From Closterium sp. NIES-65 (lineage: Eukaryota > Streptophyta > Zygnematophyceae > Desmidiales > Closteriaceae), in assembly GCA_948144175.1 (NCBI GenBank), contig CANXME010002497.1:744001-808000 (forward strand): a DNA stretch of 64,000 bases, written 5' to 3'. Below the pieces are notes generated by a model, which saw nothing but the letters and a program-made list of their open reading frames with translations, had not been told where the DNA came from and did no database searches. Below, piece by piece: positions 4,341-63,730 of the stretch (position 1 is the stretch's first letter; every line of letters begins with the position of its first letter). The position numbers and the translations under genes are program-made.

Positions 4341-4411
4341 CACCTCTGCTCCCCTGCACTCACCTCTGCCACAATTGCTAAACCGTGTGCCATCCCGTCA
4401 CACCTGCCATC

Positions 4412-6195: not shown

Positions 6196-7576
6196 TCACA
6201 AGCGCCGCACGTTCTGGGTTTCTCCTAGGAAGAGGCACCCAAACACATCGTTGAAAAAGGTTTTGGGTCGCAGCCACGCGGATTCATCTTCCGCTTCTGC
6301 ACTGCCCTCTGAGCCGGTAGGCCTTGGGAAGATCCTCTTCATGTCGTACGTCACAGCACGCGTGCAGTCCGGGCAGTATGTTACCTGTACACCGCCACAT
6401 GAATGCATAACATATGCAAATTCTAAAGAAAACAATATATAATAAAGGAGAATAGAATCATGATAATTTTACAAAATGTAGGGCATTAGGAAGCTGAATA
6501 GCAGGGAAGGAGGCGGTAATTGCACGACTAACCTCTAGAAGCTTGGGTTGGAAGTGATCATCCAGCATCACATCCACACCGTAGATTGCTCGACAGGTGT
6601 CGTCATCTGGTTGCATCTCGGGGTGGACGGTGACAGCAGCAGCCAGGAGCTCCCGCAGCATCCTCTGCACTGATTGGTCGATAGATTGCCACGTCACTGT
6701 AGCGGCAGGCATGCAAGTTGGGTACAGTTGGAGGGGAAAGAGCGAGTGGAGGAGGGATGAGAGGGGGAAAATATGCTCCTTTCATGCGTATTCCTGTGTC
6801 ATGGGGATGTGTGCAGTTAGCTGTTGCATGCCATTAGCAGAATGCATGACATGTCAAACCCCATACATACCATCTCACCAACCATGCATACCATGCCATC
6901 GCCCATCCATACCACGCCATCCCCCATTCACGCCATGCTGTCACCCATGCATACCGCTGTGCTCGTGCTCAAACGCCTGCACAAACTCGTGTGTTGGAAC
7001 GTGCTCATACTTGTGACCACTGTAGTTCTGACGAGAGTGTGAGAGGATGGAGAGGGGGAGGAATGGAGAGAGGGGGGGATGGAGAGGGGAGGATGGAGAG
7101 AGGGGAGGATGGAGAGAGGGGAGGATGGAGAGAGGGGAGGATGGAGAGAGGGGAGGATGGAGAGAGGGAAGGATGGAGAGAGGGGAGGATGGAGAGAGGG
7201 GAGGATGGAGAGAGGGATACAGGGGAAAGGATGGCATGTCAACAAAAGCATATTCTCATACTTGTGATTGCTGCTGTTCTGATGAGAGCAGGATGGAAGG
7301 ATGGAGAGAGGGAGGGGAGGATGGAGAATGAGATGGGAGGATGGAGAATGAGATGGGAGGATGGAGACATGAGAGACACACAGATGCATGTGCAAGCGGG
7401 CGCGCGAGCGCATGTGTGTGTGTGTGTGTGGCTGTGTGTGTGCGTGTGTGCCCACGTGTGTGTGTGTGTGTGTGTGCTTGTGTGTGTGTGTGTGTGTGTG
7501 TGTGCCCACGTGTGTGTGTGTGTGGCTGTGTGTGTATGTGTGTGTGTGTGTGTGTGTTTGTGTATGTGTGTGTATG

Positions 7577-7619
<43 letters not shown>

Positions 7620-10600
7620 TTGTGTGTGTGTATGTGAATCAGGGAGTATGGAGTGTCACAACCAGAATGTGCATAAATCAGTACCGTGATGACGTGTCAT
7701 GACTGAAGCAATTCTGTATCGCACCACACCACAACACACCACACCACACTGCACCGCACCATACCATGACAGTGAAGTGTGTCTGGAAGTCCGACAGGGA
7801 GTCCTCTGCTTGAGAATACTTGTTGTTGGCGATGCGAGCCTGGCGGTGCAAGCAAAGAGGGGTGAGTCACATGAGCCATGCAAGAGATGGGAGGCACAGG
7901 GCGAGTTGATAAAGTTGAGAGTCCGGCAGAGTGTTTTTTGCTTGAGAACACGTCTTGTTGGCAAAGAGTGCAGCAGGAAACAGGCAGCAGACAGCAACAA
8001 GCAAGCAGCATTCCACTCCGCCCGACCCACTCACCCAGAGCACGTCCGATAAATACGCCTCCAGCGGCTTGAGTCTCTTGAGCAGGAGCAGGAAGCGCAG
8101 GTCGAACTTCCTCATGTGGAAAAGTGCAGCAGCCAACCAAGCAGCAGGCGGCAAGCGGGCAGCATTCAACCCAACTCACTTCCTCCCGTCAACCCACTCA
8201 CCCAGAACACATCGGAGAGATATGCCTCCAGCGGCCTGAGCCGCTTGAGCAGCAGCGGGAAGCGCAGGTCGAATATCCTCCCATGGAAGAGTGGAAGGCG
8301 GGAAATGTACTTCTGGCACAGCTTGGGGCCGCTCTCTGCCCTGCCTTGTCCCCACCTCGCTGTTGCGCCCGTGTCTGCCATGCTGTGGGGCGCTTCATCC
8401 CAACACCAAACAGGCAGCGACAAGGACCAACCAGCAAGCACCAGTGGACCACCCAACTCACCCAGAAGACGTCAGAGAGATATGCCTCCAGCGGTTTGAG
8501 CCGCTTGAGCAGCAGCAGGAGGCGCAGGTCGAACTTCCTCCCGTGGAAGAGCGCGGGGCGGGAGATGAACTTCTGGGCCACCTTGGGGCCGGTCTCTGCC
8601 AGCCGAATGGTCTCTGCCTTGAGTTCGACCTCCCCTTAGGCCCAGTCTCTGCCTTGCTGTGGGGGGCCTCACAGCAACACCAGCCAGCAAAAAGCAAGCA
8701 GCAGGCAGAGAGCATGCAGCATTCAACCCAGCACACTCACCCAGAACACGTCGGAGAGATACACCTCCAGCGGCTTGAGTCTCTTGAGCAGCAGCAGGAA
8801 GCGCAGGTCGAACTTGCGCCCGTGGAAGAGCGCGGGGCGGAAGATGTACTTCTGGGCCACCTTGGGGCCGGTCTCTGCCAGCCGTACGATCTGCGCCAGC
8901 TGGCGCGCCACCGTTGCATCCATGCTGCGCGCGAGATTCCAGGGCTTTAAGATCCACGTGTTGTCCAGATCGGGGTCTGTGGGATGAAAGGGGGAGAGAG
9001 GTGGGCAGATGAGAGAGGACCAGAGGAGAAATCCAAGGAGGAGGAGGGAGTACAGCGAGAGGGTGCCCAGACGTTCCCTGATTACAATTCTTCCCTACCT
9101 TCATAGCTCTCAGGCGCCTCACCCCTTCATCGCTGGCACTCACTCGCCTCCCTGCAGCAGCATCAGCAATCACTCACTCACTCACTCACTCACTCAATCA
9201 CTCACTCATTCATTCATTTTGCACAACTCACCGACCTGCATGGATCTCAGGCGCCTCACCGCCTTCATAGCCGGCAATAACTCACCTCCCTGAAGCACCA
9301 ACATTTTAAAACCTTCGTTTCCTGGAACCTCCCTATGGCAATCAAGGTCTCCTGCCTTCAATGCTCATGGCCCTCTCACCTGCGTCACTATCAGGCTCCT
9401 CTCTGCCCTCGTAGCCAGCAATGAGTCGCCTCCCTGCTGCTGCAGCAGCTGCCGCTTCCCTCTGCTGGAAGCATCCAATCAGCGCTGCCAGCTCCGATGT
9501 TCACTTACCCTCATTCTTCTCAGGCGCCCCACGGCCCTCATAGCTGGCAATCAGTCGCCTCCCTGCACCAGCAACTTCCGCCGCCTCCCTCTGCTGGAAG
9601 CACCCTATGAGCGCTGCCAGCTCCGACTGCATGTCGTACGTGTCTTGCAGCCAGGGGCGCGTGTTGCCGTACGCCTGCATGGAAGAGCAACAACAGAGGA
9701 CCAACAGAGCAGCAGCAGAGCAACAACAGAGGACCAACAGAGCAGCAGCAGAGCAACAACAGAGGACCAACAGAGCAGCAGCAGAGCAACAACAGAGGAC
9801 CAACAGAGCAGCAGCAGAGCAAGAGCCAGCAGCAGAGCAAGAGCCATCATGAGACGGAGAGCAGACAGCCATGCAGCATCCTCTCAGTGCCGCCAACTGT
9901 GAGTGCATGCGATACGTGTATTGAAGCCAGTAGCACGTGTTGCCATATGTCTGCACATAGCGAGAGAGTAGCAAAGAGACTATCACACACACACACGTGA
10001 GGCAGCATTCGAGAAGATGGTGAAACAAACAGGACAGAATACGGCCTTCAAACACCTCTGCATGCATCAAAGACTGAGCTGGCAGCATGCAACAAGCATA
10101 TGGGGTATCAGGTACTGAGCAAATGTTGAGCTGACTGCACAGTGCACTATGTGAAAGACATGGCATGTGACGCTGACTGAATTGTACAAAGCGCATCGTG
10201 TGTAATGCTGAATGCATATGAACACAGCCCTCCCAGCCCTCCTTGCCCTCCCTGCCCTCCATTCTCTCCTTTGCCCTCCCTGCCCTCTCTGTCCCTTCAA
10301 CAATTATGCACCTCCCATCCCACCTGCTGAGTCATCCGTGGCAGGTGGCGTTTCATCACAATGCATGCCTCAAACGGATTTTGCTCCCTCTTGGCCCTCA
10401 CTTCTCCCTTGGCGCTCCCTTGGCCCTCCCCGCCCTCTCCACCTTCTCCACCCTCCCCGCCCTCCCTTGCCTCTCCACCACGCACCTGCTGGATGGTCTT
10501 CGCCAGATGATGTTTCATCACAATGCATGCCTCAAACGGGAACTGGTTCACCAACGGCTCCTGCCCGCTCTTCTCCCGCCTCTCCTTCAGCCCAGCCGCA

Positions 10601-13600
10601 TCTCTGAACGCATCGTCCACCTGTATGCTTGTCCAGATGATGTCCGCCTCGCTGGGTGCGTCAACTGAAAGGCAGTTGGAGGTTTTGGCGGTTGGTTGGG
10701 GAACAGGGGAAGCACGAGCATGAATTCAGCTTCGCCTCTCCTTCAGCCCAGCCGCCTCTCTGAACGCCTCGTCCATATGATGTCCGCTCGCTTGGTGAGT
10801 CAACTAGAGGATAAGAGGTGGGTGTGGGGGGGGGGGGGGGGGGGGGGGGGGTAAGGAAGATAGGGGGGAAGACCTATCTTTGACGGCTCTCTATGACCTC
10901 TCTAGCCTCTCGAAAAGCATCGTCCACCTGCATGCTCGTCCATATGATGTCTGCTTCGCTGGGGGCGTCCACTGGGGGAGGGGGAAGAGGGGATAAAGGG
11001 TGGGGGAGGGAGAAGAGAGAGCCCAGTTAACATAGCTCCTCCACTCCTCCCTTGCTTCTCTGATCTGAACGCATCAATCAGACAATGCTTACCTGGCAGA
11101 TAATATTTGCCTCAGTGGGGGCATCAATTGGGGAGGAAGGAAGGGGGATGAGAGAGCAGCAACTCAATTGTGACGCCTCCTCCTCCCTTCCTTGATTCTC
11201 TGAATACATTGTCCACCTGCTTGTACTGAATGCAAGTCCACCAGCCAGCCCATCCAGATCATATCCGCCTCGCCAGTGCACTCCAGTGTACAAGGGAGAG
11301 AGCACAGTGAGTGTCTATAGCGTGAATAATTCTTTTACAAAAGGTCGATGGTGAAAGGAACAGCGTCAACGCATACAAACACACACAAAGAAAGAAAGAT
11401 AAAAGGAAAACTTCTGAGAGATATTGGGAAAGAAAGCTGTCGCCTCGCTAGAGAGGTATGTGGCGAGTACGGCATAGAGGGCAAGCTAACATGCTTGGTG
11501 GGTCGTCTATCGCTAGCTAGGGATGGCTAACTAGAGATAAACGACTTACCAAGCATGAGCCCGGAGCAGGTCGTTCAAGAGATGAGGCGCCTCAAGAGAA
11601 CACATGCGGAAGAGAGCACATGCGATGCTCCCCAGCTTGCCCCTCCCTTGGCTAACATTGCTCCCCAGCTTGCCCCTCCCTTGGCTAACATTGCTTCACA
11701 AAGGCTGACCCGGTCACTCACTCACTCACCAAAAAGTGAAGTCAGGGCGGGAGAGGTTGTCAAGGATATGGGGCAGACCGCTGTGGACTCGATTCGATAC
11801 ACTCGCTTCCCCGCCTTGCCCTGCTCCCCCCATCTACTTGATTGAAGCACTTACCAAAAGTGAATTCGGGGCGGGAGAGTGTGTCGAGGACGTGTGGAAG
11901 ATCGCTGAACACTCGATAAACCCGCTTCCCTGCTTCCAGCTTCTCCGGCTCGTCTGCTTTCTCTGGTTTGCCTGTTGCTCCACCAGCCTCTCCTCCTCCT
12001 GCGTTGTCCTCTTTATTGTCGGGTTCGGCACAAGCAAGAAAAGCGGTTGCCTCTGCGTTCTTTGCAGACGCTGCTGCGAACCTGCACAGGCGCTGCTCAT
12101 AGGCCTGGGGCGTGGTGGAGAGGGGTATCGTGAGGTGGGATGAGTTGGGATGGGATGGAGTGGGATGGGGTGGGATGAATGGAGTTGTGGGATAGGATGG
12201 CGTGGGTGAAGTGTGATGACATGATGAGAGGTGAAAGGAGAGGAAGAGGAGAGGCGCTTTGAGGGAGGCTTGGTTTGAAATGGGATAAGATGGGGCGTGG
12301 CCTGTGTGGTGAAAAACGGTCCCTGCCGCCCTTTGAATTGGCTAGAATGCACGCGGGAGAGTGGGTGTGAGGAACTGCACGGAAACTGTAGCCGGCGCCC
12401 TTGAGCTCAAACTACAAGGGAGTGAAAGGAGCAGTGAAAGTTAGTGTACTTGCTGGAAGCAGTGGAGGGCGCGTGGAGCCACAGAGACAGCCTGAGAGAC
12501 TGCTGCTGCTGCCCTTACGTTTGATGCACAAGGGAGAAAAAGTAACTTGAGAGTTGAGGAGGGAGCGAGAGAGATGCCGTACTTGCTGGAATGCGCTTGA
12601 GGGTGTGTGAAACCAAACAGAAAGCTTGGCGGAGCGCTGCTGCTCCTCCCCCACCCCGGCGAGATAATCCCTTGTGCACTCCTCCCCCGCCTGCACTGCT
12701 GCCAGCGGCCACACCAGCGAGTAGCTGGAGGAAGGGAGGAGAACAGAGAGGAGCCATGTGAGCAGAGAGGAGAGCGCAGCTGCGCAGGTATGGGAGGGCA
12801 GGGAGGGGCAATGCGTGAGACGAGAGGCGATGAGAGGAAGGCAATCCTGCCCCACCCCGGCGAGATAGTCCCTCGTACATTCCTCTCCCTGCTGCACTGC
12901 TGCCCGCGGCCACACGAGTGAGTAGCTGGGAGGGGCAGCAGTGCATGAGGAAGGGAGGAGGGAGTGGGTGGGGGGAGATCGGAGGCTCTGGGCCAACAAA
13001 CAACCTGAGGGAAAATTCACCTGACAGAAAGTCCACCTGACAACAAAATGACAGCAAAGGAGAAAGAGCAATGTGCCACGAAGAGGAAGAGCGCACATCA
13101 GAAGTTGGTTTCGAAGGAAGGATGGCTTACCAGAAACCCAGCACACTGATAGCCACAGTGCATCCCCACGCTCACCTGACAGCCACAGCCCCACACCCAT
13201 TGCGAGTGATTTTTGAGAATTCTCAAAAATCACTCGCAAGGACTACAGCTCCCACCTGACAGCACAGCCCCACGCTCACCTGACAGCACAGCCCCACGCT
13301 CACCTGACAGCACAGCCCCACGCTCACCTGACAGCACACCCACACCCACCTGACAACAGATTACCTGACAATTTACACCCCCAGGCCCAGGCTCACCTGA
13401 GAGCACACCGCACTCTCACCTGAGAGCACACCGCACTCTCACCTGAGAGCAGAGGCGAAGGAGCCATCAGGCAGGAAGAGGAAGGGCGCACAGCGGAAGT
13501 TGGTTTAGAAGGAAAGGAAGGCATACCATACAAAATGCTCCTTTAACTATACCCGCCCCATACCTGACAGCAGAGGCGAAGGAGCCATCAGGCAGGAAGA

Positions 13601-16600
13601 GGAAGGGCGCACAGCGGAAGTTGGTTTAGAAGGAAAGGAAGGCATACCATACAAAATGCACCTTTATCTATACCCGCCCCATACCTGACAGCAGAGGCGA
13701 AGGAGCCATCAGGCAGGAAGAGGAAGGGCGCACAGCGGAAGTTGGGTCGGTCGCTGTGGCGGAAGGCACTGCCGAACTCGTCCATCACATACCTGGGGGG
13801 GGGGAGAGGATGGCGAAGCGGGGAGAGGGAGAGAGGATGAGCAGAGGAGGTAAGGGAGAGAGGATGGGGACGCAGGGATAGGGCACGGGCAGCTTGCGCA
13901 GGTGGTCAAGAGGAAGGGCGCACAGCGGAAGTTGGGGCGGTCGCTGTGCCAGAAGGCACTGCCGAACTCGTCCATCACGTACCTGATGGGGGTTGGGGGG
14001 GAAGGAGTGGGTGGGGGGGGTATGTGGGAATGTGAGGGGTTGCAGGAGGGTGTGGAAGGAGAATACGGAGAGCAACAAAAGGACGTTGGGGCGGTCGTTG
14101 TGACTTTTGAGTCGACTCAAAAGTCAACTCGTCCATCATGTACCTGGGATGCGGGGTGGGGTGGGGTGGGGTGTAGGGTGGGGTGTGGGGGTGCGGGTGG
14201 GTGTGGAGGGGTGTGAGGGGTTGTGGCAGGGTGTGGAAGTGGGAGGAGCATGAGGAGAGCAACAAGCGAGATTGTGGGAAACAGGTGTAAAGAGAACTGT
14301 GGGGAGGGGGAGGAAGAGGCTATTGCATGGCATGTGGTACAGTGTCAGTACATGCAACAGATAACACTACTACATGGCATGGCATGCGGTATGCCGTCAG
14401 TATATAGCAACAGAAAACAACAGTACTGCATGAACGTAGTCCTTTGCCGCAGGGTGTTTTTGAGAATTCTAAAAAATACCCTGCAGCACTCAAGTTGAGT
14501 TTTGAGACGTCTCAAGACTCGCCACACTGCACTCTCGTGTCTCGTGGCTCGTGTCTCGTGGCTCGTGTCTCGTGTCTCGTGGCTCGTCCAATTGAGTTTC
14601 TGTGGCGAGCTTGTAGCAGCACATGTGGTGCCACATGCCATACAGCACCCAGCATTCCTAGTCAGTGATCCATCACTCAGAGCGACGGACTAAATGCAGT
14701 GCAATGTGGTGCAGTGCGATGCAGTGTGGTGCAGTGTGGTGCAATGCATACCCACTCACCACACAGCACTCTCGTCCAGCTGTGTTTCAGTAGCGAGCTT
14801 GTAGCTGCACACGTGGCGCCACATGGCAAGCAGCACTCGATCCACCAATGGCGTGCCAGGCTGCCAGGCTGGCAGGCGAGGAAACATCCAGGAACCTCCG
14901 CGCATAAAGGAGGGAAGCGGAGCGCCATTGAGGGAGGAGAGGCGGGGGAGAGTTGAAGCTGCATCATATGGGTCGAAGGGGAAGGGGCCTTCCAGGTCCA
15001 CCTGGGAATGACAGGGCAAACGAGGAGTGGTGGGGGAAGGGGTGGTGGAAATGGAAAGCGAGGTGGGCGGGGCGAAAGTTAGAGCTGCTTGATCAGGGTC
15101 AAAGCGGAGAACGATGAGGAAGAAAAACAAAGGGAAGAACTCCTTCCAGATCCAATGGGGAAGCGCGCAGAAGGAAGGGAAGCCACGCGGCAAGAGGAGG
15201 TGACGTTGAGGGAGGAGAGACAGCGGGGAGGAGAGGATGCTGCGAGGAGAGAGAGCGGGGAGGAGAGGATGCTGTGTGACACAGATCAAAGATAGAGGAG
15301 CCTTCTAGGCCCAGCTGGGTGGGTGGAAGTAGAGGTGCGGGAGGTAGTTTTGAAAAGGGGCACATGCAAGGGGAAAGTGGAAGGGGCTCGTGGAGAGGTG
15401 AGGTGAGGGGCAGCAGCAATAAGCTGAACAGAACCAGAGAGCAGCATGACGAGGCAAGACTACTGAAATCACCTTCAAGAAATTTCAGAAGTGATTTCAA
15501 CGCAGCAATAAGCTGAACAGAAGCAGACAGCGTGAAGCGGAGAGATTACGGAAGCTATCGGAGCCCACCAATGTACACCTGACCTTGTTTGCACCCACCA
15601 GTACCAAGCAGCACCACACTTACATGCGCAGAGAGCGCAGCGAGGGAAGCGAGACGAGGAGCAGTAATGCACAGCTCAATTCACTTGCACCCATCAGCAC
15701 AGAGCAGCACCCATCGGAACCCAGCCGTGCCCAGCAGGTTCCACCAGCACCCATTAACACCGCACTTACTTGCAGAGAGCGCAGCGAGGGAAGCAAGGCG
15801 AGGGGCAGCAGCACAGAGGCTCGAGAGGCGTCGATGGGGGCGAGTGGGGAGAGTGGGAGCGGGTTGTGAGAGAGGTTGATATGGGCGAGGGCAGGGAGGA
15901 ACGATGGGGAGAAGACCTGTAGAGTCAACGAATAGCAGAGAAGAAAATGTGGGAGAGGGGCAGGGATAAGGAAGAGGGAAACATGGGGACGGGTTTTGAG
16001 AGGAGTGAAAGCAAGCAGGCAAGGGAGGCAAATGGGGGCTGTTTGGGCAAGCGGTTGTTGTGAGTGAGAGGGCTGGGAGGAGTGTATAGAGGAGGAGATG
16101 ACATTTAGAGAAGCAGGGAGAGTGGCAGGTACATGGGAAGGGGAATGGGAAGGTGAAGAGGAGGAATGGGAAGAGAGGGAGATAGCGGTGTGTCAACCCA
16201 ATTCAACTCACATCAGCCCAAGTCAAACCTCGTCCGCCCTTATTTCCATGCTTTGAACCCGTCTCATCTCATCCCAATCAGTCACACCTCTTGCTTTAGC
16301 TCCACGATCCCCCGGTCAGACAAGTCAACTTCAGTCAACCGCGCCAGCTCAGCAGCCGCCACGTCATCGTCCAACGTGGCACGGTTAGGGCCCACCACAT
16401 CAGCAGCGAAGAGCAGCGCCCAGGTGGAATAGCGGCGGGTGAAGTGGCGGTTGAACAGCTCGAGATTGGGGAGAGACTCAAGGAGGGCGTTTCTCAGATC
16501 AGCAGCGGCGGACCTGCGGCGGCATGGGGGGACGCAAGGGATGGCGGGGTAGTGTAGTGTAGGAGAGGAAGAGGGAAGAAGGAGGCGAGTGGCAGCAGCA

Positions 16601-18252
16601 GTGTGAGTAGGTTCAGCTACTGAGGAGGGATCCAGGGAGAGCGTTTCTCAGAGCAGCAGCAGCGGACCTGTGAGTAAGAGCACGGGTGAGAGGACGGTGG
16701 AGGTGAGGAGGGGGGTCAGACGGAAGGAATGTAGCAGGGATGACATTGTGAGTGAGTGCAGCGCCCACATTGTACTGCGGCGGATGAAGGGGAGGATTCA
16801 TTGGCAGGTGAATCGTTCTTGGGCGGGAGGGAGGAGAGTGTTTTTTAGTTTAGAGTAGGAGCAGCGGGCATGTTAGAGCATGCAGGAGAGGAGGGGAGAG
16901 AGGGTAGGAAGTGAGGAGGAGCAAATAAATCTCTCAGAACAGAGTGCATGGGCAGGCATGCAGGGAGCGCGAGGAGGGGGGTGACCGGAGAACCTTTCTC
17001 TCTACGACCGCAACATGAGTCACGCATGTGAAAGCACTCCCATCTTACTCACTCGGTGGCAGCACACGGGTTGTCGTTGAGCCAGAGCGCATGCAGGGAG
17101 GTGAGAGGAGAGAGCAGGGAGGCCACTCGAGCAGCGTCCGTGAGGCGGTTACCCCAGAGGCTCAGACCCACCAGGTTCTGGTGGTGAGGGAGTTGGGAAG
17201 GGTGATACGGGGTAATAGTGTGAAGTGGAATTGCGACAATAGCGGGAAGATTAAGACTATGTTAACGTGAGGATGTGACTTAGTCGCCCCAAAGGCTGAT
17301 TCGTGAAACGTCTCAAAAAACGTCCGTCACGGAAACAGGAAAGTGCGAGCAAAGAGAGGGGAGCCGTTTGTCCAACACCACAGATAGGCAGGTTCAAGTT
17401 CCGACCTGGTCAGACCTGGTCTGCCTGCGGGTAGATAGGCTCGCAGCTTAGTTGGTCATTTACGTTTACGTTTACGTACGTACGTGTACGGGTACGTACG
17501 TTTACGCGGCTGTTGGGTTGGAGGCCTAATTTACGGGCAGGTGAAAAAATTTCTGGGCTGCCCGGATATGTTTATTTTCTCTATACTTTTCCCTCGTAAT
17601 CATAATTTCCATCATACAGTGTAAAAATTCCATCATGTAGTGTAGATTTAGATTTGACTCGGCGAATTGGTTTGACTCGAAGTTGGGATTCGCCGAAACC
17701 AGTGAACCTCGGCGGTGACGAAACTACCGAGCGGGTGACATTCGCTTACCTTGCAAACGAAGCAATCGCAATCTGAGTCAAACTGTTCGCAATGTTCTAT
17801 CGCGAACAGTTTGCACACATTCAAATCTACTCCCACCACAATTTCCTCCCTCCCTCTCTCGACAGACTTAGCTATCGTAGTTCTGCCGCCTTAGTCGACA
17901 TAGTACGTAGGGTAGTCGCCACACCATAGCGACCCTAGCTAGCAACCTTCCTGTTTCTTACATTACTACTTTGAAAAACGTCGCGCCGTTTTGCTAACAC
18001 GCTAACAGAGCACAGGTCGTCGAAAGATTTTTTCTTTTTTAGTTTTTTCGGAAACCGTTTTCAAAGAAATTTCAACGCATATTTTTTTTCCTGACCTGCC
18101 CGGCGTACGTACACGTACGTACGCGTACGTACACGTAAACGTACATGTACGCGTACGTTACGTGTACGTGGGCTGAAATGGCGTAAATGACCAACTTAGG
18201 CTCGCAGGCGTTATTGTTGCCCCGCAGACCTAAGAGCGTGAGCTTTGCTAGG

Positions 18253-18332
<80 letters not shown>

Positions 18333-19947
18333 TGCCGCTGCTGCTGCTGCTGCTGCTGTTGCTGCTGCTGTTGCTGTTATGGGAGATTCGTCTTATATCC
18401 TCGATACTGAATTCTAACGATGAGGTGAGGATCAACGGAACTAGGTAGGTCAAGACAGAGACTTGACAGGTAGATGAGTGTGCGACCGCGACAGTGGCAG
18501 CGGCAGCGACAGTGACCGACAACAGTGCAGGCTGACTGTAGTGCAAAAAGAACACAGAGCGACAAGCGACACTCTGTTGAAACAAAACCCCCTTCACTGT
18601 ACCCTCTATAGGCAGCCTCGTTAGTGGGACTCACAGGGAAGCGCTCGTGCAGGTTCATAGCAGCAAGCATGGCATCATCAATCCCCTCCCCGTCCATCTC
18701 CAACCACTCCACACCGCTCTCCACCTGCCCCTCCGCCCCTCCCTCCGCCTCTCCACGTCCCGTTGTCCCATCTGTTCCCGGGATTCGTGCGTCCACAGCC
18801 GCCCGAACTGCCCGTGAGATGATTTCATCGACGGACTTTCCGCCCTTGCTTTCTTCCTCAGCCTTCTCTGCGCCTACAGTTTTCCCCTCTCCATTTCCTC
18901 CCACCTCCCCTTCCCCCTCCCCCTCCCCTTCCCCTTCACCCTCCCCCTCTTCCTCCCCCTCGTCCTCCCCCCCAACGCACATGAGAGCCGCCATCCGCGC
19001 CGCCAGCTTGGGGAGGTTCTCCAGCTGCGAGAAGAGTGGGGGGAGAGAAGTGGAGGAAGGGATGGGGGGAGTGGGTCAGAGGGAGAAGAAAAGGAGCAGC
19101 GGCGCATGAGAGCCGCCATCCGCGCCGCCAGCTTGGGGAGGCTCTCCAGCTGCGGCAGGAGGGGGAAGAATGAGGGGAAGGGATGGGGGAGATGGGGGAG
19201 TGTGGGGGATTGTGTGATGCGGGGTCCCAGGGGGAAGGGGCGGGTGGATCAAGGCTCTCCAGCTGCGAGAGGAGGGGAGGAGAAGTGGGGGAAGGGATGG
19301 GGGGAAGAAGCTGGAATGTGTGGGGTCCCGGGTGAGGGGAGGGGGGGGGGGGGGGGTATGCGCAGCATCACATGAGATCCGCCATCCGCGCTGCCATCCA
19401 TCCCCCCTGCTTTTCGCGAATTATCATATGTGATGTGACTCCCGCACGCTCCCCACTCCCCCCACAACACTCTTTCCCCACACGTGCCGGCTCGCGTTCA
19501 TGCCCGCCTTCCCCCCCCGCTTCCCCCCCTCCCCTCCCCCCTCCACACTCCCCCCCCCCCAAGTCGTGCCTGCTCGCGCGCCTGGCCCAATCGGAACGAC
19601 CACGCGTGGTCCACCAAAAACACGTCACCCTGCGCGTCCAATCCCTGCCCGCCAGGTGTCAGCACGACGCGCCTCTGCCGCCCGCCCTCCACCTCCTCGA
19701 TCGCGAATCTGCTGCCCGCATCGAATCTTTCCGCCATGATCTTCTCGAACAGTCGCGGGTAGAGCTCGCGAGGTAACCCTGTCGCGAGTAACAACATTTC
19801 GTGAACTTTTACAAAGTCCTCTAGGGTTTGAATCCGTGGAGGCGGGGAATCCGCGGGCGGGGGCTCCGCCGCAGCGGCGGAGGCTTGCGCATCAGACGGC
19901 TGCGCGGGAGTGCTCCTTGGCGGAGCGGAGTCAGCCGCGGGCGCCAT
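6196..19947 (-). CDS. TTLL12: Tubulin-tyrosine ligase-like protein 12 (TTLL12), plant type with leucine-rich repeats
   Basis: A 16-exon minus-strand model, all splice phases consistent, 1029 codons plus TGA. Exons in order: 19570-19947, 18635-19024, 17053-17177, 16288-16513, 15770-15916, 14760-15001, 13685-13792, 12583-12724, 11855-12104, 10486-10664, 9509-9674, 8741-8976, 7765-7839, 6955-7027, 6533-6696, 6196-6384. The start ATG is at 19945-19947 (MAPAADS); no ATG lies upstream in frame. Residues 1-130 hold the TTLL12 N-terminal module (FDAGSRFAIEEVE, VDHAWSFRL). Residues about 255-420 hold leucine-rich repeats (LVGLSLWGNRL, LHALWLNDNP, LTEVDLSDRGI). Then come the MWRHVCSYKLATE, YVMDEFGSAFRHSDRPNF and ECTRDYLAGVG blocks. 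The TTL/ATP-grasp part has NTWILKPWNLARSMD, FDLRFLLLLKRLKPLEVYL, YGVDVMLDDHFQPKLLE, CPDCTRA and FFNDVFGCLFL. The family acts on or near tubulin tyrosination; TTLL12 proteins are often considered catalytically weak, so ligase activity is not claimed. Intron 1 would use a GC-AG splice. Exon 2 encodes a long acidic Gly/Glu tract not typical of the family. Confidence 0.9.
7035..7365. repeat. GA-rich minisatellite and exon-14 partial copy in TTLL12 intron 13
   Basis: 7035-7217 is a tandem of a roughly 17-bp unit GAGGATGGAGAGAGGG; 7296-7365 repeats GGATGGAGAATGAGATGGGA. Between them (about 7230-7290), the minus strand carries a decayed copy of the exon-14 start, including its acceptor: CAG followed by AACAGCAGCAATCACAAGTA, compared with the real exon at 6955-7027. 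Confidence 0.8.
7407..7640. repeat. (TG)n microsatellite
   Basis: About 230 bp of TG dinucleotide with scattered interruptions (CCCACG, GGC, TA). Cysteine/valine-rich open frames over it are artefacts. Confidence 0.95.
7893..8615 (-). repeat. Intronic copies of TTLL12 exons 13 and 12
   Basis: Between real exons 13 and 12 lie four decayed copies. 7893-7965 mirrors exon 13 (reading FANKTCSQAKNTLPDSQ against IANNKYSQAEDSLSDFQ). About 8030-8130, 8200-8345 and 8455-8615 mirror the 3' part of exon 12 (HGRKFDLRLLLLLKRLKPLE and variants), each ending with its own GTGAG donor. The exon-12 copies become shorter with distance from the real exon. The protein needs only one copy of each, and phases fit only the chosen exons. 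Confidence 0.85.
9085..9497 (-). repeat. Intronic copies of TTLL12 exon 11 (3' half)
   Basis: Three copies of the 3' half of exon 11: 9085-9160, 9240-9296 and 9388-9497. The last reads LAALIGCFQQREAAAAAAAG then RRLIAGYEGR; the real exon at 9509-9674 has EAAEVAGAGRRLIASYEGR. Between them is a CTCA microsatellite (9172-9210). Confidence 0.75.
9685..9960 (-). repeat. 30-bp minisatellite and 5' copy of TTLL12 exon 11
   Basis: 9685-9845 holds about five copies of a 30-bp unit (AACAACAGAGGACCAACAGA) next to the exon-11 acceptor. 9882-9958 is a copy of the 5' half of exon 11 on the minus strand (TYGNTCYWLQYTYRMHSQL against AYGNTRPWLQDTYDMQSEL). Confidence 0.8.
10330..11295 (-). repeat. Five intronic copies of TTLL12 exon 10 parts
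   Basis: Around real exon 10 (10486-10664): 10330-10420 copies its 3' end (PFEACIVMKRHLPRMTQQ plus a GT donor), and 10730-10800, 10890-10975, 11085-11135 and 11180-11290 copy its 5' or middle part (for example APSEADIIWTSMQVDDAF at 10905-10975). A G homopolymer of about 22 nt (10829-10851) separates two copies. None fits the reading phase better than the chosen exon. Confidence 0.85.
11630..11815 (-). repeat. Direct repeat and decayed copy of TTLL12 exon 9 end
   Basis: 11631-11697 is a 33-bp perfect tandem duplication (CCCCAGCTTGCCCCTCCC start). 11725-11815 on the minus strand copies the end of exon 9 (GKRVYRI, then LSRPDFTF in a shifted frame, then a GTGAG donor), compared with the real exon at 11855-12104 (GKRVYRVFSDL, LSRPEFTF). 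Confidence 0.75.
12415..12930 (-). repeat. Partial copies of TTLL12 exon 8 on both sides of the real exon
   Basis: 12415-12500 copies the 3' end (LSLWLHAPSTASSKY against LSVWFHTPSSAFQQ). 12838-12927 copies the 5' end with acceptor (SYSLVWPRAAVQQGEECTRD against SYSLVWPLAAVQAGEECTRD). The real exon 12583-12724 lies between and contains both halves. Confidence 0.85.
13070..14146 (-). repeat. Five partial copies of TTLL12 exon 7
   Basis: Around real exon 7 (13685-13792): 3'-half copies at 13078-13125, 13442-13505 and 13562-13625 (NFRCAPFLFLPDGSFASAV with donor) and 5'-part copies at 13905-13983 (MDEFGSAFWHSDRPNFRCAP) and 14080-14146. The last copy is interrupted by a 26-bp palindrome at 14101-14126. 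13240-13400 is a roughly 24-bp minisatellite (CTCACCTGACAGCACAGCCC), and a perfect 40-bp palindrome sits at 13200-13239. Confidence 0.88.
14449..14660 (-). repeat. Exon-6 3' copy followed by two palindromes
   Basis: About 14530-14660 on the minus strand copies the exon-6 end (ATETQLDE/ESAVW region), expanded inside by a CACGAGACACGAGC-type tandem. It passes at the position of the splice donor into a near-perfect 24-bp palindrome (14497-14520), then a 36-bp near-palindrome (14449-14484). Confidence 0.8.
15145..15700 (-). repeat. Copies of TTLL12 exon 6 start and exon 5 end
   Basis: 15145-15165 and about 15285-15320 resemble the start of exon 6 (DLEGVLPF and GLEGSSIFD against DLEGPFPFD). 15615-15700 copies the exon-5 end (LVSLPSLRSL against LALLPSLRSLQ) with a GTAAGT donor. 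A 20-bp direct repeat (15413 and 15502) brackets a 34-bp near-palindrome at 15465-15498. Confidence 0.7.
16605..16672 (-). repeat. Copy of TTLL12 exon 4 start
   Basis: Minus strand reads SAAAALRNALPGSL then a stop, against SAAADLRNALLESLPNLE in exon 4 (16288-16513); the acceptor region is also copied. Confidence 0.75.
17452..18194. mobile_element. Candidate non-autonomous DNA element with TACG-rich termini
   Basis: Terminal inverted repeat TTGGTCATTTACG (17452-17464) and its reverse complement (18182-18194), flanked by CTTAG on both sides (17447-17451 and 18195-18199). Both ends carry arrays of TACGTACG/GTACGT (17461-17507 and 18108-18168), and both carry CTGCCCGG motifs a little inside. No ORF with coding character. 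It lies in intron 2 of the TTLL12-like gene. The 5-bp duplication and short repeat do not decide a superfamily. Confidence 0.6.
18256..18380. repeat. (GCT/GCC)n trinucleotide repeat
   Basis: About 40 units, with CTG at the edges and CCG in the centre, in TTLL12 intron 2. Homopolymer-like open frames (Ala, Leu/Pro, Ser/Gly) are not counted as genes. Confidence 0.95.
19088..19400 (-). repeat. Copies of TTLL12 exon 2 start
   Basis: 19088-19151 carries the acceptor and LESLPKLAARMAALM, nearly identical to the real exon start at 19024 downward (LENLPKLAARMAALM). 19254-19280 and 19370-19400 carry shorter pieces. A G-run (19340-19357) and a C-run (19550-19560) mark the edges of this duplicated stretch. 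Confidence 0.85.
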
Positions 19948-20106
19948 TTTGGGAAATCTTCCGGTGAACTGGTGCCACGTGGAGATTGATTCCGCTGAGG
20001 GGCTAACGAGAGGAACGAAGGTCGCGGAAGGCCGTTGGCGAAACGCCGGATTCGACGGATGCAGGCGACGCGAAACTATTGAATGGATAAGGTTCCTGGC
20101 TTTCAA

Positions 20107-21584
20107 AATTGTGACACAGTATGAGGGGTTTTGGGGGCCAAGGAGGGTTCAGTATTGAGAAATTTGGCATTTGACACAAATTCGTGTTACCGTTTTCGTC
20201 TTCGTCGCCAGTTTCGCGACTTTCTCAAGGTGGGGGTGAGTTTGGTCCAGTTCAGTTCGTGGTGGCTTTGCACAGTGAAATGTACAGCACGCCGCGACTA
20301 CTAGAACCTTCCACAACGCGTATCGAGCTGCTTATGTAACGCGGATTTCGGTTCACCACTCCGTTCCCTACACACACCCATCCTAACCCCTATCTTCCTC
20401 CCTCGCACACCTCTAGTCAACCAGTCAAGTCAAGACCGAGATTACCGCGAATACCTCACCACCACAGCCACGCATGTTCTCGAGGGATCTTATGTAGCTG
20501 AAGGGAGTGCCTCATTTTCAGGCATCAGCGCAGCCAGCGCACATTACTCCTTCCTTTCCATTCCAGCCACTCTTCGCTACTCGCCGCGCCGATTACCGTC
20601 ATCGCTAGCGGGACGCCTCAAGCCTTTTGCGGCTTCGCGGCATTGCTCACTGTCACCCTTCGTTACAGGTGCCCTCCTCCTCTTAACGCGCGCGCCCACC
20701 GTTCCCGTCAATTTTCTCCCCATCACTTCATTTTTGTTGATTCGCCTCAAATTCGCCTCAATATCTCCGTGGGAGGTACTAATCATTATCGCTTCATTTT
20801 TGTTGATTCTCCTCTTGCTGCACTCACCCACCACTCCCGCACTCACGGCGTCACCTGCTGTCCATCGCCGCTTCACTCCGGCCGTCTCACGTCCCGGGAC
20901 CGTGACGTTCGCTTCGTCGCCGTGTTTGAGGCGTCTCAAAACTCTTCTCGCGTCCCGTTTCGCTTCGTCCCGCTTTTCAGTTGCCGCGACGATCCAATGC
21001 GGCTCGCCGCCGAATGAAATAAGCGTTGTTTTGAGGCGTCTCGAAGCAGCACTTTTATCACGTGGCTATTCTTTTTCAATCGCCGCCGCGACGATCCAAT
21101 GCTCGCCGCCGCATGATGCGGCTTTCCCGTCCTTTCGTCTCTTCAAAACTCACCGTTTCTCGCGCAAATCTGCTTGTCGCTTCCAGAGTCCAGGCAGCTT
21201 ACCGATGGACTGAAAGAGGGCAGTCATAACGGATGATGCTATATGGAACCCTTACGCCCGCTCTCCCCGCACTTCCGGTTCTCCCCGCACTTCCCGTTTT
21301 CCCCGCACTTCCCCGTTCTCCCCGCTCTTCCCGCTCTCTCCGCTCTTCCCGCTCTCCCCGCTCTCCCCGCTCTTCACACCGATTTCCGGCCGGGGCCCTC
21401 TCCAAAGTGCTTCGCTTCCATTCCGCCCACCACCACCCCTCCCTCCCCTCCTCCCCACCACACACCCGCACTCTCCATTCCTTCCGCTCTTTCCGCGTTT
21501 CCACGTCAGATCGATCAACACGAGCGTCACAACATCGTCCCCGTCCCTCCATCTCCCTTCCTTCCTTCCTCTTTCCCGTGTCAG
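20107..21584. other. Intergenic region between divergent genes
   Basis: Separates the start of the TTLL12-like gene (minus) from the secreted coiled-coil gene (plus). It probably contains both promoters, but no reliable TATA or core element was recognised. Two GAGGCGTCTC-type palindromic motifs occur at 20925-20940 and 21031-21044. The C-rich stretch 21240-21370 is a degenerate CCGCTCTTCC repeat. Confidence 0.5.
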
Positions 21585-21858
21585 GTTGCTGAAACGAACG
21601 ATTGCAACGATCGCCACAATGAGGGCCTCGCTCCCTCCCACCTGTATGAAGAAGTGTTTTGAGACGTCTCAAAACCCTTTCTTCCTTCCTCTTTCCCGTG
21701 TCAGGTTGCTGAAACGAACGATTGCAACGATCGCCACAATGAGGGCCTCGCTCCGTCCCACCTGTATGAAGAAGTGTTTTGAGCCGTCTCAAAACCCTTT
21801 CTTCCTTCCTCTTTCCCGTGTCAGGTCGTTGGGACGAATGGTTGCAACGATCGCCAGA
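21585..21858 (+). repeat. 120-bp tandem copies of the leader and first codons of the secreted coiled-coil gene
   Basis: Units 21585-21704 and 21705-21824 are near-identical and match the sequence leading into the real start at 21859 (both contain ATGAGGGCCTCGCTCC). In each copy the reading is broken right after the CACCTG that precedes the signal-peptide leucine run, by a 20-bp palindrome at 21656-21675 (perfect) and 21776-21795 (one mismatched pair). Confidence 0.9.
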
Positions 21859-28059
<6,201 letters not shown>

Positions 28060-59506: not shown

Positions 59507-62500
59507 ATGAGTGCCGCTCGCCTTCCCGCGCTCCTCGCGCTCCCGCTGCTGCTGTTGCTCGTCGCGAGCCTGCTGGTCACCCCGCTGCGCGCCGAGGACT
59601 GCGACGCAATCCTCGATAAGGTGAGAATGACGCGCGACGAGAATGAGGAGCGGCGAAGGGGTGAATTCTGCGTGTCGGTTGACGAGCAGCACCGCGTGCG
59701 GCTGCGCGCCGATTGACGACCAGCAGGCTGCGCGCCGAAGACTGAGACGACATTCTAGATCAGGTGCGAGGCGAGAGTGACGAGGAGCGCGTGGAGGGGG
59801 AAGGTCTGAGGGGGGTGCATGATTCTGCGCGCCGATGAGGACCAGCTCCGCGCGGATGACGCGCGGAAGACGGTACTACTCATTCATACGCATACCTTTC
59901 CCCATCCCTTCCCCCGCGCTTCACTCGCTTCATTCAAGTTTCCTCTCCTCGCGTACACCTCTGACTGCACGCCTTTTGAGACGTCTCAAGAGTTATTCCC
60001 GCCTCTCCTTACACTGCGCGCCATGAGGCGCAGTGAGAAAAAAAAATCTAGAATTCTCAACAATCTTTGGAGGCGTCTCAAGAGTTATTCCTGCCTCTCC
60101 TCTCACTGCGCGCCAACGAGGGTTCTGGCCCAGTGAGAAATTTTCGAGAATTCTCAAAAATGTGTTAAGTTGTCTCAAGCGTTATTCCCCGCCTCACCTC
60201 TCACGCACCAACGAGGCTTCTGGCCCTGCCCCAGGGGAGGGGAGCACGTGTAAAGGCAATTTCTGTTTGAGCTGCTACACTAGATTTTCCTTTTCTTTGT
60301 TCAAGCTGCTGCGCGCATGCTCCAAGCCTCGCACATATCCCTCTCTCCTTCCCCGCCCTTTCTTCTCTCACTGCGTGCCGATAACTGTGCGCCTATGGCT
60401 GAATGCCTATGACTGAATGCCTATGACTGAATGCCTATGACTGTATGCCTATGGCTGAATGCCTATGACTGAATGCCTATGACTGAATGCCTATGACTGA
60501 ATGCCTATGACTGAATGCCTATGACTGAATGCCTATGACTGAATGCCTATGACTGTATGCCTATGGCTGAATGCCTATGACTGAATGCCTATGACTGAAT
60601 GCCTATGACTGAATGCCTATGACTGAATGCCTATGACTGAATGTCTATGACTGAATGCCTATGACTGTATGCCTATGGCTGAATGCCTATGACTGAATGC
60701 CTATGACTGAATGCCTATGACTGAATGCCTATGACTGAATGCCTATGACTGAATGCCTATGACTGAATGCCTATGACTGAATGCCTATGACTGTATGCCT
60801 ATGGCTGAATGCCTATGACTGAATGCCTATGACTGAATGCCTATGACTGAATGCCTATGGCTGAATGCCTATGACTGAATGCCTATGACTGAATGCCTAT
60901 GACTGAATGCCTATGGCTGAATGCCTATGACTGAATGCCTATGACTGAATGCCTATGACTGAATGCCTATGACTGAATGCCTATGACTGAATGCCTATGA
61001 CTGAATGCCTATGACTGAATGCCTATGACTGAATGCCTATGACTGAATGCCTATGACTGTATGCCTATGGCTGAATGCCTATGACTGAATGCCTATGACT
61101 GAATGCCTATGACTGAATGCCTATGACTGAATGCCTATGACTGAATGCCTATGACTGAATGCCTATGACTGAATGCCTATGACTGTATGCCTATGGCTGA
61201 ATGCCTATGACTGAATGCCTATGACTGAATGCCTATGACTGAATGCCTATGACTGAATGCTTATGAATGAATGTCTATGACTGAATGCCTATGACTGAAT
61301 GCCTATGACTGAATGCCTATGACTGAATGCCTATGACTGTATGCCTATGGCTGAATGCCTATGACTGAATGCCTATGACTGAATGCCTATGACTGAATGC
61401 CTATGACTGAATGCCTATGACTGAATGTCTATGACTGAATGCCTATGACTGTATGCCTATGGCTGAATGCCTATGACTGAATGCCTATGACTGAATGCCT
61501 ATGACTGAATGCCTATGACTGAATGCCTATGACTGAATGCCTATGACTGAATGCCTATGACTGAATGCCTATGACTGTATGCCTATGGCTGAATGCCTAT
61601 GACTGAATGCCTATGACTGAATGCCTATGACTGAATGCCTATGGCTGAATGCCTATGACTGAATGCCTATGACTGAATGCCTATGACTGAATGCCTATGG
61701 CTGAATGCCTATGACTGAATGCCTATGACTGAATGCTTATGAATGCACGCCGGTGACTCCAGGGGGGATTGTGAGGAGAAGATGGGCAGTCACAAATATC
61801 GCTCCCTCTCCACATGCATGAGTGCCTCTCCACATGCATGAGTGCCTCTCCACATGCATGAGTGCCTCTCCACATGCATGAGTGCCTCTCCACATGCATG
61901 AGTGCCTCTGCACATGCATGAGTGCCTCTCCACATGCATGAGTGCCTCTGCACATGCATGAGTGCCTCTGCACATGCATGAGTGCCTCTCCACATGCATG
62001 AGTGCCTCTCCACATGCATGAGTGCCTCTGCACATGCATGAGTGCCTCTCCCTCCCCTTGCCAGGTGAAGGAGTGTGAGGACACGTGGGGAAGTTGAGGA
62101 AGTTGCTGTTCATTGAGGGAGTATGTGTGCAGCAGCAGCTTGAGCAAAGAAAAGAGGCAGAGAGCACATTTTTGCTGTCATCTGCGTTTCCCTTGCCAGG
62201 TGGAGGAGTGTGAGGAGAATGTGGGGAAGCTGAGGAAGCTGAGATTCGAGGCGGAGAACAAGTTTGACGCGACGCATGCGATGGGGGAGAAGATGAAGGA
62301 GAAGATGGCCGAGTGTGAGGAGACCACCGCCAAGAACGCTGCTGAGCGGGAGAAGGAGAAGAGCGAACTGAGTAAGTTGGCGGATTCCATTTTCAAGCAA
62401 AGTAGATGTGTGTGTCGAGTTGATTCAGATGAGAAAATGGGGAGTTGGCTTGGCAAAGTAGGTTGGAGGAGATAACCTGGGGGGAGCTTGATGGGGTGCA

Positions 62501-63275
62501 GAGAGAAAGATGGTGTGAGGGATCTAGGGGTGCACGTGATCTAGCTTGATCTGGGCTGTACGTGGGGATAAGATTGGTTGCTGGGCCTCACGCAACTCTT
62601 GTGCTGCACTGTGCTCCATGCCTCTTCTGACTTACAGCCATGCACAGTCTTCTGATATGGCCCTCAAGTGCACGGCTCTTCTGGTCTTGTTCAACGCTTC
62701 TCAACGGCAGCAGTGCTTCACCTGGATGGGAGTGTTAAGTCGTGCTTCGGGCATGCCAATATATGTCCACTGTTTTCATGTCTCATCTCTTTGCCTCTCT
62801 TAACACTCTGCAGGTCACATTGGCTGAGAGGCTTGAACAAAAAGGATGATGTCGTGTTGTAGACACTTAAGGCATGAGGCATGCTCACAATGCCTCCTCC
62901 TGTCTCCTCTGTGTCCCTCTCTCGCCACTCTCCCCTTTCAATGCAGTGGCACAGGTACATGAGCTGGAGAACAAGGTGAAGGAGCTGCTCAAGGCATGCT
63001 CACAATGCCTCCTGTTTCCTCTGTGTGTCCCTCTCTCCCCTTCCAATGCAGTGGCACAGGTACATGAGCTGGAGAACAAGGTGAAGGAGCTGCTCAAGGC
63101 ATGCTCACAATGCCTCCTGTTTCCTCTGTGTGTCCCTCTCTCCCCTTTCAATGCAGTGGCACAGGTACATGAGCTGGAGAACAAGGTGAAGGAGCTGCAA
63201 GCGAAGCTGGGCATCAGTGAGGACAGCAGCACCAGTGATGACACCAGCAGTGACGGCAACACCAGTGACAAGTAA
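59507..63275 (+). CDS. Small secreted coiled-coil protein, copy B (three exons)
   Basis: Model: 59507-59620, 62200-62371, 63157-63275, stop TAA; 134 codons, phases 0 and 1. Exon 1 is a signal peptide (LLALPLLLLLVASLLVTPLR) ending AEDCDAILDK, with donor AAG|GTGAGA. Exon 2 (acceptor TTGCCAG|GTGGAG) encodes VEECEENVGKLRKLRFEAEN and a Lys/Glu coiled coil with a second Cys, ending KEKSEL, with donor A|GTAAGT. Exon 3 (acceptor AATGCAG|TGGCAC) encodes AQVHELENKVKELQAKLGI, then a Ser/Thr/Asp-rich tail. The last splice phase and the KSE(L/I) boundary match the copy A gene at 21859-28059, so the two are likely paralogues. Function unknown; secretion is inferred from the signal peptide. Confidence 0.75.
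59705..59875 (+). repeat. Decayed copies of exon 1 end (copy B gene)
   Basis: 59725-59790 repeats CGCGCCGA[GA]GACTG...ATTCT[CA]GAT[AC]AGGTG including the donor; a shorter piece follows at 59823-59860. They carry stops and are not part of the model. Confidence 0.7.
59960..60215. repeat. Three tandem units with palindromic cores
   Basis: Units of roughly 100 bp, each with a GTCTCAAG[AC]GTTATTCC start, a Pro-rich CGCCTC stretch and a CAGTGAGAAA end followed by an AGAATTCTCAA palindrome. Palindromes: 59973-59992, 60050-60061, 60140-60161. Confidence 0.75.
60396..61745. repeat. 14-bp satellite in intron of the copy B gene
   Basis: About 95 copies of the 14-bp unit ATGCCTATGACTGA. Variants (TGTATGCCTATGGC) recur roughly every 8-11 units, which gives a visible higher-order period. 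Confidence 0.97.
61800..62052. repeat. 20-bp minisatellite
   Basis: About 12 copies of GCCTCTCCACATGCATGAGT with CTC/CTG variants, directly upstream of the exon-2 copy. Confidence 0.97.
62055..62110 (+). repeat. Copy of exon 2 start (copy B gene)
   Basis: CCTTGCCAG|GTGAAGGAGTGTGAGGA then a stop, matching the real acceptor and first codons at 62191-62240. Confidence 0.85.
62942..63156 (+). repeat. Two 105-bp tandem copies of exon 3 start (copy B gene)
   Basis: Units starting at 62947, 63052 and 63157 are near-identical: acceptor AATGCAG, TGGCACAGGTACATGAGC and the helix HELENKVKEL. 105 is a multiple of 3 and no stop occurs, so read-through across all three would stay in frame. Only the third continues into the QAKLGI tail. 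Confidence 0.92.
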
Positions 63276-63730
63276 ACCTCTGTAATGGTTGGCTCATGCC
63301 TGCAAGCGAAGCTGGGAATCAGTGAGAACAGCAGCACCACTGGCGACACCAGCAGTGACAAGCAGCCCTTGTAATAGATGGTTCATGCATGAATTGTGCA
63401 AATGCAGTGTGTGGTTTTAGCGTCTGTCAATTTGAGGTTGTGTAAATGAGTAAAATGATATCTCATTAATTGGAATCATGACATAAGGTCATTGTACCTG
63501 GAGTCGTCGTCATCAGCGGAAACAGCATTGGCCCCATGAGCCAGACCGTGTACGGTACCTAGAGTCGTCTTTATTGCATGCCACCTTATTTCCCCACCTC
63601 CATGAGACATAAGCGATGCAAAATGCAGGTGCCTGCGCGGGAGACGTGACACACGAATCCTGCCGTGCGAGGCTGAGCGGCAAGGCTGAGCGGCGAGGCT
63701 GAGCGGGAGAGGATCTCTCAGCGCCTTGCG
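63276..63730. other. 3' flank of the copy B gene and intergenic region
   Basis: 63300-63375 is a further copy of the tail-coding segment (LQAKLGISENSSTTGDTSSD) after the stop. The rest shows no gene; 63665-63705 repeats GGCTGAGCGGC[AG]A. Confidence 0.6.

Follow-up and report, generated by a model that had tools for sequence, protein, structure and literature searches.

The TTLL12-type gene analyzed here is lined with truncated, partly decayed copies of its own exon edges. These copies are probably the outcome of recurrent short tandem duplications, each with one breakpoint in a coding exon and the other in an intron or flank, that subsequently decay neutrally. The tandem geometry of the copies, their neutral pattern of change, their presence in several gene families and the difference in copy number between two near-identical contigs are established. 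The gene lies in the window, that is, the whole stretch of 64,000 nucleotides that was analyzed (C2199:744001-808000), which was taken from the 874-Mb, 2,400-contig genome of the zygnematophyte alga Closterium sp. NIES-65. The gene model is given below; in this model the donor of exon 1 is uncertain, and one exon was possibly missed between exons 2 and 3.

6196..19947, minus strand: TTLL12-type gene, modelled with 16 exons from the splice sites and reading frames of the sequence
19947-19570, 19024-18635, 17177-17053, 16513-16288, 15916-15770, 15001-14760, 13792-13685, 12724-12583, minus strand: exons 1-8
12104-11855, 10664-10486, 9674-9509, 8976-8741, 7839-7765, 7027-6955, 6696-6533, 6384-6196, minus strand: exons 9-16

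Judged from sequence similarity, the predicted product is a TTLL12-type protein. It aligns with the proteins P0001-P0004 of other Closterium strains at 82-90% identity over 96-99% of the queried part, and P0001 carries the Pfam domains TTL and SET_TTL. Two related loci were used for comparison: contig C1801 holds a near-identical second copy of the locus (10,544 intron bases aligned, with 41 differences), and a second, more distant TTL gene lies near 636 kb, where the stretch examined on C2199 starts at exon 7. An Rfam search at gathering scores returned nothing in positions 6000-22500.

Copies were searched for in the introns beside their own exon, or by BLAST within the gene region. Every exon was compared by alignment with the intron on either side of it, and the best result from 200 first-order shuffles of the intron concerned served as the threshold. 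This shuffle test was passed by 27 exon-intron matches, and 24 were kept as curated copies; the three that were dropped (exon 2, low-complexity; exon 5 upstream and exon 7 downstream, both marginal) are also consistent with the direction rule described below. The curated copies adjoin exons 2, 4, 6, 7, 8, 9, 10, 11, 12 and 13, and no copy of exons 1, 3, 15 and 16 was found in their flanking introns by the shuffle test. A 3'-side copy of exon 5 and a copy of exon 14, the latter mostly intron sequence, were detected by BLAST (1e-14 and 2e-13), yet they fail the shuffle test. Thus, where the first-pass annotation had spoken of at least 11 of 16 exons and listed 12, ten of the 16 hold under the strict test and exons 5 and 14 are left with their BLAST matches. 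The copies and arrays are as follows.

19102..19149, minus strand: exon 2 5'-part copy (exon positions 1-48); BLAST and shuffle test
16588..16667, minus strand: exon 4 5'-part copy (1-80); BLAST and shuffle test
14583..14648, minus strand: exon 6 3'-part copy (166-231 of 242); BLAST and shuffle test
14081..14143, minus strand: older exon 7 5'-part copy, containing a palindrome; BLAST and shuffle test
13908..13982, minus strand: exon 7 5'-part copy (1-75), 95% identical; BLAST and shuffle test
13441..13745, minus strand: 121-bp array, 2.5 units (6.5 units on C1801)
13253..13451, minus strand: 23/24-bp minisatellite in intron 7, adjoining the 121-bp array, its unit including a donor-like CAG/GTGAG
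13049..13108, minus strand: old exon 7 3'-part copy, with a junction resembling that of the 121-bp array; BLAST and shuffle test
12845..12925, minus strand: exon 8 5'-part copy (1-81); BLAST and shuffle test
12450..12511, minus strand: exon 8 3'-part copy (81-142); BLAST and shuffle test
11732..11839, minus strand: exon 9 3'-part copy (146-249 of 250); BLAST and shuffle test
10733..11273, minus strand: four exon 10 5'-part copies (10733-10803, 10884-10971, 11026-11127, 11173-11273); shuffle test
10324..10452, minus strand: exon 10 3'-part copy (44-179); BLAST and shuffle test
9875..9950, minus strand: exon 11 5'-part copy (1-76); BLAST and shuffle test
9101..9497, minus strand: three exon 11 3'-part copies (9391-9497, 9235-9337, 9101-9162); BLAST and shuffle test
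8035..8618, minus strand: three exon 12 3'-part copies (8462-8618, 8202-8388, 8035-8127); BLAST and shuffle test
7920..7971, minus strand: exon 13 5'-part copy (1-52); BLAST and shuffle test

The unit of the 121-bp array consists of 61 nt of the exon 7 3' end, the donor and 60 nt of intron, and the first of the exon 12 copies (8462-8618) also matches the TTL profile (8462-8605). The distance from an exon edge to the nearest copy is 121-279 bp in this gene, and 2,093 of its 10,662 intron bases fall within recognizable truncated copies.

The arrangement of the curated copies follows a strict rule: all 11 copies of a 5' part lie upstream of their exon, and all 13 copies of a 3' part lie downstream. 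The copies also share one strand with their exons, since 105 same-strand and no inverted self-matches within 1.5 kb were found in the window (low-complexity filter on); the tile test described below gave two inverted cases in the window, neither of them within the TTLL12-type gene. Both the common strand and the separation of 5'-part and 3'-part copies to opposite sides of the exon had been claimed from a reading of the sequence, and both are confirmed. The direction rule is the signature of a tandem duplication that has one of its breakpoints within the exon: when the end of an intron and the start of the exon are duplicated, the truncated copy comes to lie upstream, and when the end of the exon and the start of the next intron are duplicated, it comes to lie downstream. 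As the rule follows from tandem duplication alone, it is by itself no evidence of selection.

Exons and curated copies differ at 84 of 674 first, 91 of 678 second and 152 of 678 third codon positions (12.5%, 13.4% and 22.4%), and the excess at the third position (p = 5e-8) is explained by silent substitution in the real exon on top of neutral change in the copy. Identity between copy and exon is 74-96% in most cases, and 51 of 61 alignment gaps, counted from permissive alignments, are not multiples of three. The splice dinucleotide, GT or AG, is kept in 17 of the 23 testable copies; the splice site is thus usually retained, as had been noted, at about the 16.2 copies expected under neutral decay at 84% identity. 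With every codon position changing and splice sites retained at the neutral level, there is therefore no sign of maintained function, and on this comparison the copies look to be decaying neutrally.

The first-pass annotation had also suggested that some copies could act as decoy or alternative exons. Maintenance of the copies for such a role in the regulation of splicing would fit the 17 retained splice dinucleotides, and it would fit the deposited Closterium gene models that count copies as exons: with the real exon included, P0005 contains the exon 12 motif four times and the exon 7 motif twice, P0007 the exon 7 motif twice and P0004 the exon 6 motif twice. These models are, however, predictions, which are expected to pick up such copies, and the truncated exon copies in P0004, P0005 and P0007 are probable annotation errors. 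Given changes at every codon position, gaps that break the frame and splice sites retained no more often than under neutral decay, the suggestion found no support, and a decoy or alternative-exon function would be very unlikely.

Duplications of this kind still vary between the two contigs that carry the locus. Beside the real exon 7, its 3' edge is present in six copies on C1801 and in two on C2199, and this is one of eight indels of at least 12 bp within the gene between the two contigs, each of which was read as a change in the number of tandem copies. Inside the introns, the two contigs also differ by tandem changes of short units (16-36 bp). The second TTL gene has its own set of copies on exons 7-12, with its own numbers and breakpoints, including five 3'-part copies of exon 12 against three in the TTLL12-type gene; a tree of the exon 12 copies of both genes, built to see if the duplications are older than the separation of the two genes, leaves 8 of its 11 inner branches open. 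The exact copy numbers of the young array, two versus six, could be assembly errors. That the copies in general are assembly artefacts is extremely improbable, considering how far most of them have diverged from their exons and that all copies strong enough for the cut-off of the comparison are present on both contigs.

In the scheme that we favour, short tandem duplications would recur in which one breakpoint falls within a coding exon and the second in the intron or flank beside it. The remainder of the exon would keep its connection to one copy of the unit, so that every such event restores an intact exon and leaves the gene functional, and the truncated copy, together with its splice site, would join a lengthened intron. 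Some of the duplications may expand to arrays of differing copy number. The copies would then decay neutrally, the intron parts faster than the exon parts, since neither copy of an intron part is constrained. The origin of the duplications may be the repair of staggered breaks.

The intron parts of the units agree with this scheme unevenly. The intron beside the splice site is 97% identical over 60 nt in the 121-bp array of exon 7, and the intron part aligned beside the copy by BLAST amounts to 21-80 nt at exons 2, 5, 8 and 12 and to 0-8 nt at exons 4, 6, 11 and 13. A global alignment of the intron parts was uninformative, with shuffled sequence scoring about 0.7. The upstream copies of exons 2, 7 and 8 stand against the scheme in that their exon part is 86-96% identical and their intron part hardly aligns, a contrast that exceeds a two-fold difference in decay and for which turnover of low-complexity sequence is the assumed reason.

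The same pattern was observed in other genes of the window. The relevant features are listed below; the exons of the gene at 59507-63275 were delimited in this analysis, and the relation of the 120-bp array to the start codon and first coding exon was read by eye.

21555..21884, plus strand: 120-bp array with 2.8 units that span the 5' flank, the start codon and the first coding bases of the gene at 21859-28059
62065..62169, plus strand: exon 2 5'-part copy, gene at 59507-63275
62928..63198, plus strand: 105-bp array of the last exon's acceptor and 5' part, gene at 59507-63275
63300..63359, plus strand: 3'-part copy of the last exon, past the stop of the gene at 59507-63275

The young arrays are arranged head to tail, with 98% identity in the 121-bp, 94% in the 120-bp and 98% in the 105-bp array, and the last of these places two copies upstream of the real last exon. 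The first-pass annotation had assigned the pattern to both genes and had regarded it as genome-wide. For the gene at 59507-63275 the second and the last exon bear this out, and exon 1 has no copy passing the test. For the gene at 21859-28059 what remains is the array at the start codon, the stretch of 22.8-27.3 kb being made up of 27-bp arrays and the open reading frame of a hAT transposase. As for the genome, exon-edge tandem duplication does extend beyond one gene, to the second TTL gene, tRNA-synthetase, TCP1 and Rpb2-type genes and a few kinesins, but it is not universal, as the kinesins in general and the adaptins demonstrate.

The wider comparison was based on 378 Pfam rows from six families, TTL included. 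All 26 edge-type pairs drawn from these rows obey the direction rule (15 5'-part pairs upstream and 11 3'-part pairs downstream). The TTL genes supply six of the 26. For many loci both near-identical copies are counted, and merging pairs with equal profile ranges reduces the edge-type pairs to 19. In nucleotide alignments, copies flanking an exon were found in six of eight tRNA-synthetase loci, in seven of eight TCP1 loci and in three of ten kinesin loci, the latter apparently representing one gene. No copies were found in seven of eight adaptin loci, the eighth (L027) giving one weak match of 57% identity that was set aside, and the 41 adaptin profile rows contain no pair. In the Rpb2-type gene L056 (C1969:110801-114400), which was picked because the profile search showed repeated matches, inspection by eye revealed an exon 3' part with its donor repeated about five times, and five 90-bp units each consisting of an acceptor and an exon 5' part.

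Several of these results do not follow readily from duplications anchored in exons. The families differ strongly, adaptins having practically no copies, and the 378 rows also contain 19 whole-exon, 14 unclassified and three inverted pairs. In addition, some matches touch no exon edge (L030 42-129, L031 331-418, L039 86-223, L040 48-185 and L041 53-159, and at low identity L042 59-478 and 59-479).

Three close inverted pairs of kinesin fragments, on C511 (712945-713361), C1725 and C1052 (556971-557362), are unlike the same-strand rule seen elsewhere.

A further question is whether the breakpoints are biased to exons. Local copies were counted in tiles of the TTLL12-type gene, with short repeats masked, 76 tiles skipped and the same rule applied as in the simulations. 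A copy was found for 23 of 55 exon tiles and for 12 of 69 exon-free intron tiles (17%), all from this one gene; a wider, hand-made exclusion of 31 copy segments gave 5 of 50 exon-free intron tiles, a count more favourable to a bias. A separate tiling of the rest of the window gave 4 of 32 tiles at 0-6 kb, 9 of 57 at 20-29 kb, 11 of 197 at 29-58 kb and 9 of 31 at 58-64 kb. The first-pass annotation would have been refuted by copies that are equally common away from exons; instead they are rarer, both in the introns (12/69) and at 29-58 kb (11/197), than in the exon tiles (23/55).

These counts were compared with simulations on this gene. In 32 runs, uniform duplication left a copy for 48-85% of intron tiles; when indels were more frequent and introns changed faster, the ranges were 47-67%, 21-50% and 15-42% (24 runs each), the last being the most permissive setting, with intron change doubled and older events. 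Under edge-biased duplication, 4-26% of intron tiles had a copy. With the uniform settings grouped in this way as four ranges, three of them lie wholly above the observed 17%, and the fourth includes it near its lower limit. Moreover, the window has six arrays whose unit is at least 60 bp and whose match is at least 85%, and three of these carry an exon edge, although exons make up little of the window. A bias of the breakpoints to exons or exon edges, beyond the slower decay of exons, is thus suggested; we grade it no higher because the recount gives 12 of 69, one gene was used and the rates were assumed.

The alternative is that tandem duplication is uniform everywhere, and that exon copies are remembered longer as one of the two copies is under selection. 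In its favour, exon parts outlast intron parts, units of 16-36 bp have changed in number within introns between the two contigs, and the most permissive range includes the observed value. Furthermore, duplication has also affected a first coding exon in its start region and a last exon at its 3' end, so that splice sites seem not to be required. The remaining three settings, which exceed the observation, and the share of longer-unit arrays that carry an exon edge speak against it, and we regard uniform duplication as quite possible, though not the probable case.

A palindrome family is associated with some of the duplications. The 18-base form, TTTTGAGNNNNCTCAAAA, has 30,327 exact copies genome-wide, compared with four of the reversed pattern; among the matches listed, a small part of the whole, the centres are mostly TCGA, ACGT, GCGC or AATT, and runs are spaced 37, 42 and 53 bp. 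The core TTGAGNNNNCTCAA is common to 23 of 28 perfect palindromes with arms of at least 9 in 313 kb, second copies of loci being counted. With up to one mismatch, ten palindrome sites were found in the window. TTLL12 introns hold four of them, intron 1 of the gene at 59507 holds two, and three more lie around the start of the gene at 21859; the last is at 27681, and the stretch between 28 and 58 kb has none. Sites of particular relevance are the following.

13200..13239: palindrome with core TTTTGAGAATTCTCAAAA, between direct repeats
14101..14126: palindrome TGACTTTTGAGTCGACTCAAAAGTCA, within the older exon 7 copy
21656-21675 and 21776-21795: palindromes between units of the 120-bp array
60140..60161: palindrome with one core mismatch, between direct repeats

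The duplications could accordingly be footprints of this palindrome, whose insertion, or a break caused by the palindrome, would duplicate a target of about 40-160 bp; in exons, only events that rebuild the edge would survive. Besides the excess over the reversed pattern, the placement of the palindromes is consistent with this, since 9 of 20 lie at junctions of direct repeats, compared with 167 of 1,414 control points taken from the sequences that hold them (Fisher p = 0.0003), with the reservation that the cut-offs were set after inspection of the data and that the 20 palindromes are not all independent (three lie within about 100 bp in L041). Four identical palindromes separate the five acceptor-bearing units of L056, and two lie between the about three units of the array at 21555-21884. 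On the other hand, 11 of the 20 are not at a direct-repeat junction, the junctions of the listed TTLL12 copies are mostly without a recognizable palindrome by eye, and the palindromes may be passengers. We therefore consider an origin from the palindrome, in both its parts, unlikely. In its strongest form it would amount to a break-or-insert system, marked by tens of thousands of palindromes with the core TTTTGAGNNNNCTCAAAA, that hits exons without killing the gene and whose debris grows the introns; this proposal is likewise doubtful.

Recurrent tandem duplication at exons, our preferred explanation, can be compared with several known systems. Gao and Lynch reportedly described internal gene duplication in 2009, in which, as here, tandem duplication within genes supplies intron sequence; unlike that case, no new intron flanked by AGGT is needed here, and the number of introns may stay the same. 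Tandem exon duplication with mutually exclusive exons also places exon sequence side by side in one gene, whereas the TTLL12-type copies are truncated and decayed. In potato, a tandem genomic duplication across an intron-exon boundary occurred in the RdRp gene, and one recent event made a new intron (PMC4974935). There, as here, the segment runs from an intron into the exon that follows, carries most of the splicing signals with it and turns exonic sequence into intronic; here, unlike the potato case, many events per gene affect both exon edges and accumulate and decay beside the exons. A break-repair route to small tandem duplications, similar to the one envisaged here, is outlined in the abstract of a study of cells with induced breaks, in which fill-in at break ends by Pol alpha-primase and CST gives such duplications (PMC8355091); that abstract mentions neither an exon bias nor a palindromic junction. 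Introners (PMC9860276) resemble the present case in that intron sequence arises in many genes of one genome, but they are dispersed copies of one element, and here each copy was found through its own neighbouring exon.

Among the best matches in open-licence literature on exon duplication, tandem duplication, the Closterium genome and palindromes, and decoy exons, the pattern is unreported, and the terms 'tandem duplication' and 'pseudogene' are absent from the main text of the NIES-65 genome paper (PMC10407611). Within this literature the geometry is known from single cases, and its density beside most exons, together with the palindrome, appears to be new. The duplications offer a visible mechanism of intron lengthening, still varying between two near-identical copies of a locus. 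For annotation, the copies are misleading, and they would account for the internal repeats in the deposited models P0004, P0005 and P0007. If the exon bias is true, its cause (chromatin, transcription or the palindrome) can be tested in a lineage close to the land plants.

Finally, the window contains other repeats. The hAT-type transposase open reading frame at 23453-25798, with DUF659 and hAT dimerisation domains, is flanked by arrays of one 27-bp unit at 22789-23187 and 26136-27335. A 22-bp array of 24 units at 4411-4947 has a consensus with a donor-like CAG/GTGAGA, which may be compared with the donor-bearing array in TTLL12 intron 7. The block at 29-58 kb, which has a GC content of up to 0.71 and repeats that are 77-97% identical to several other places on C1801 in both orientations, looks like nested transposons.
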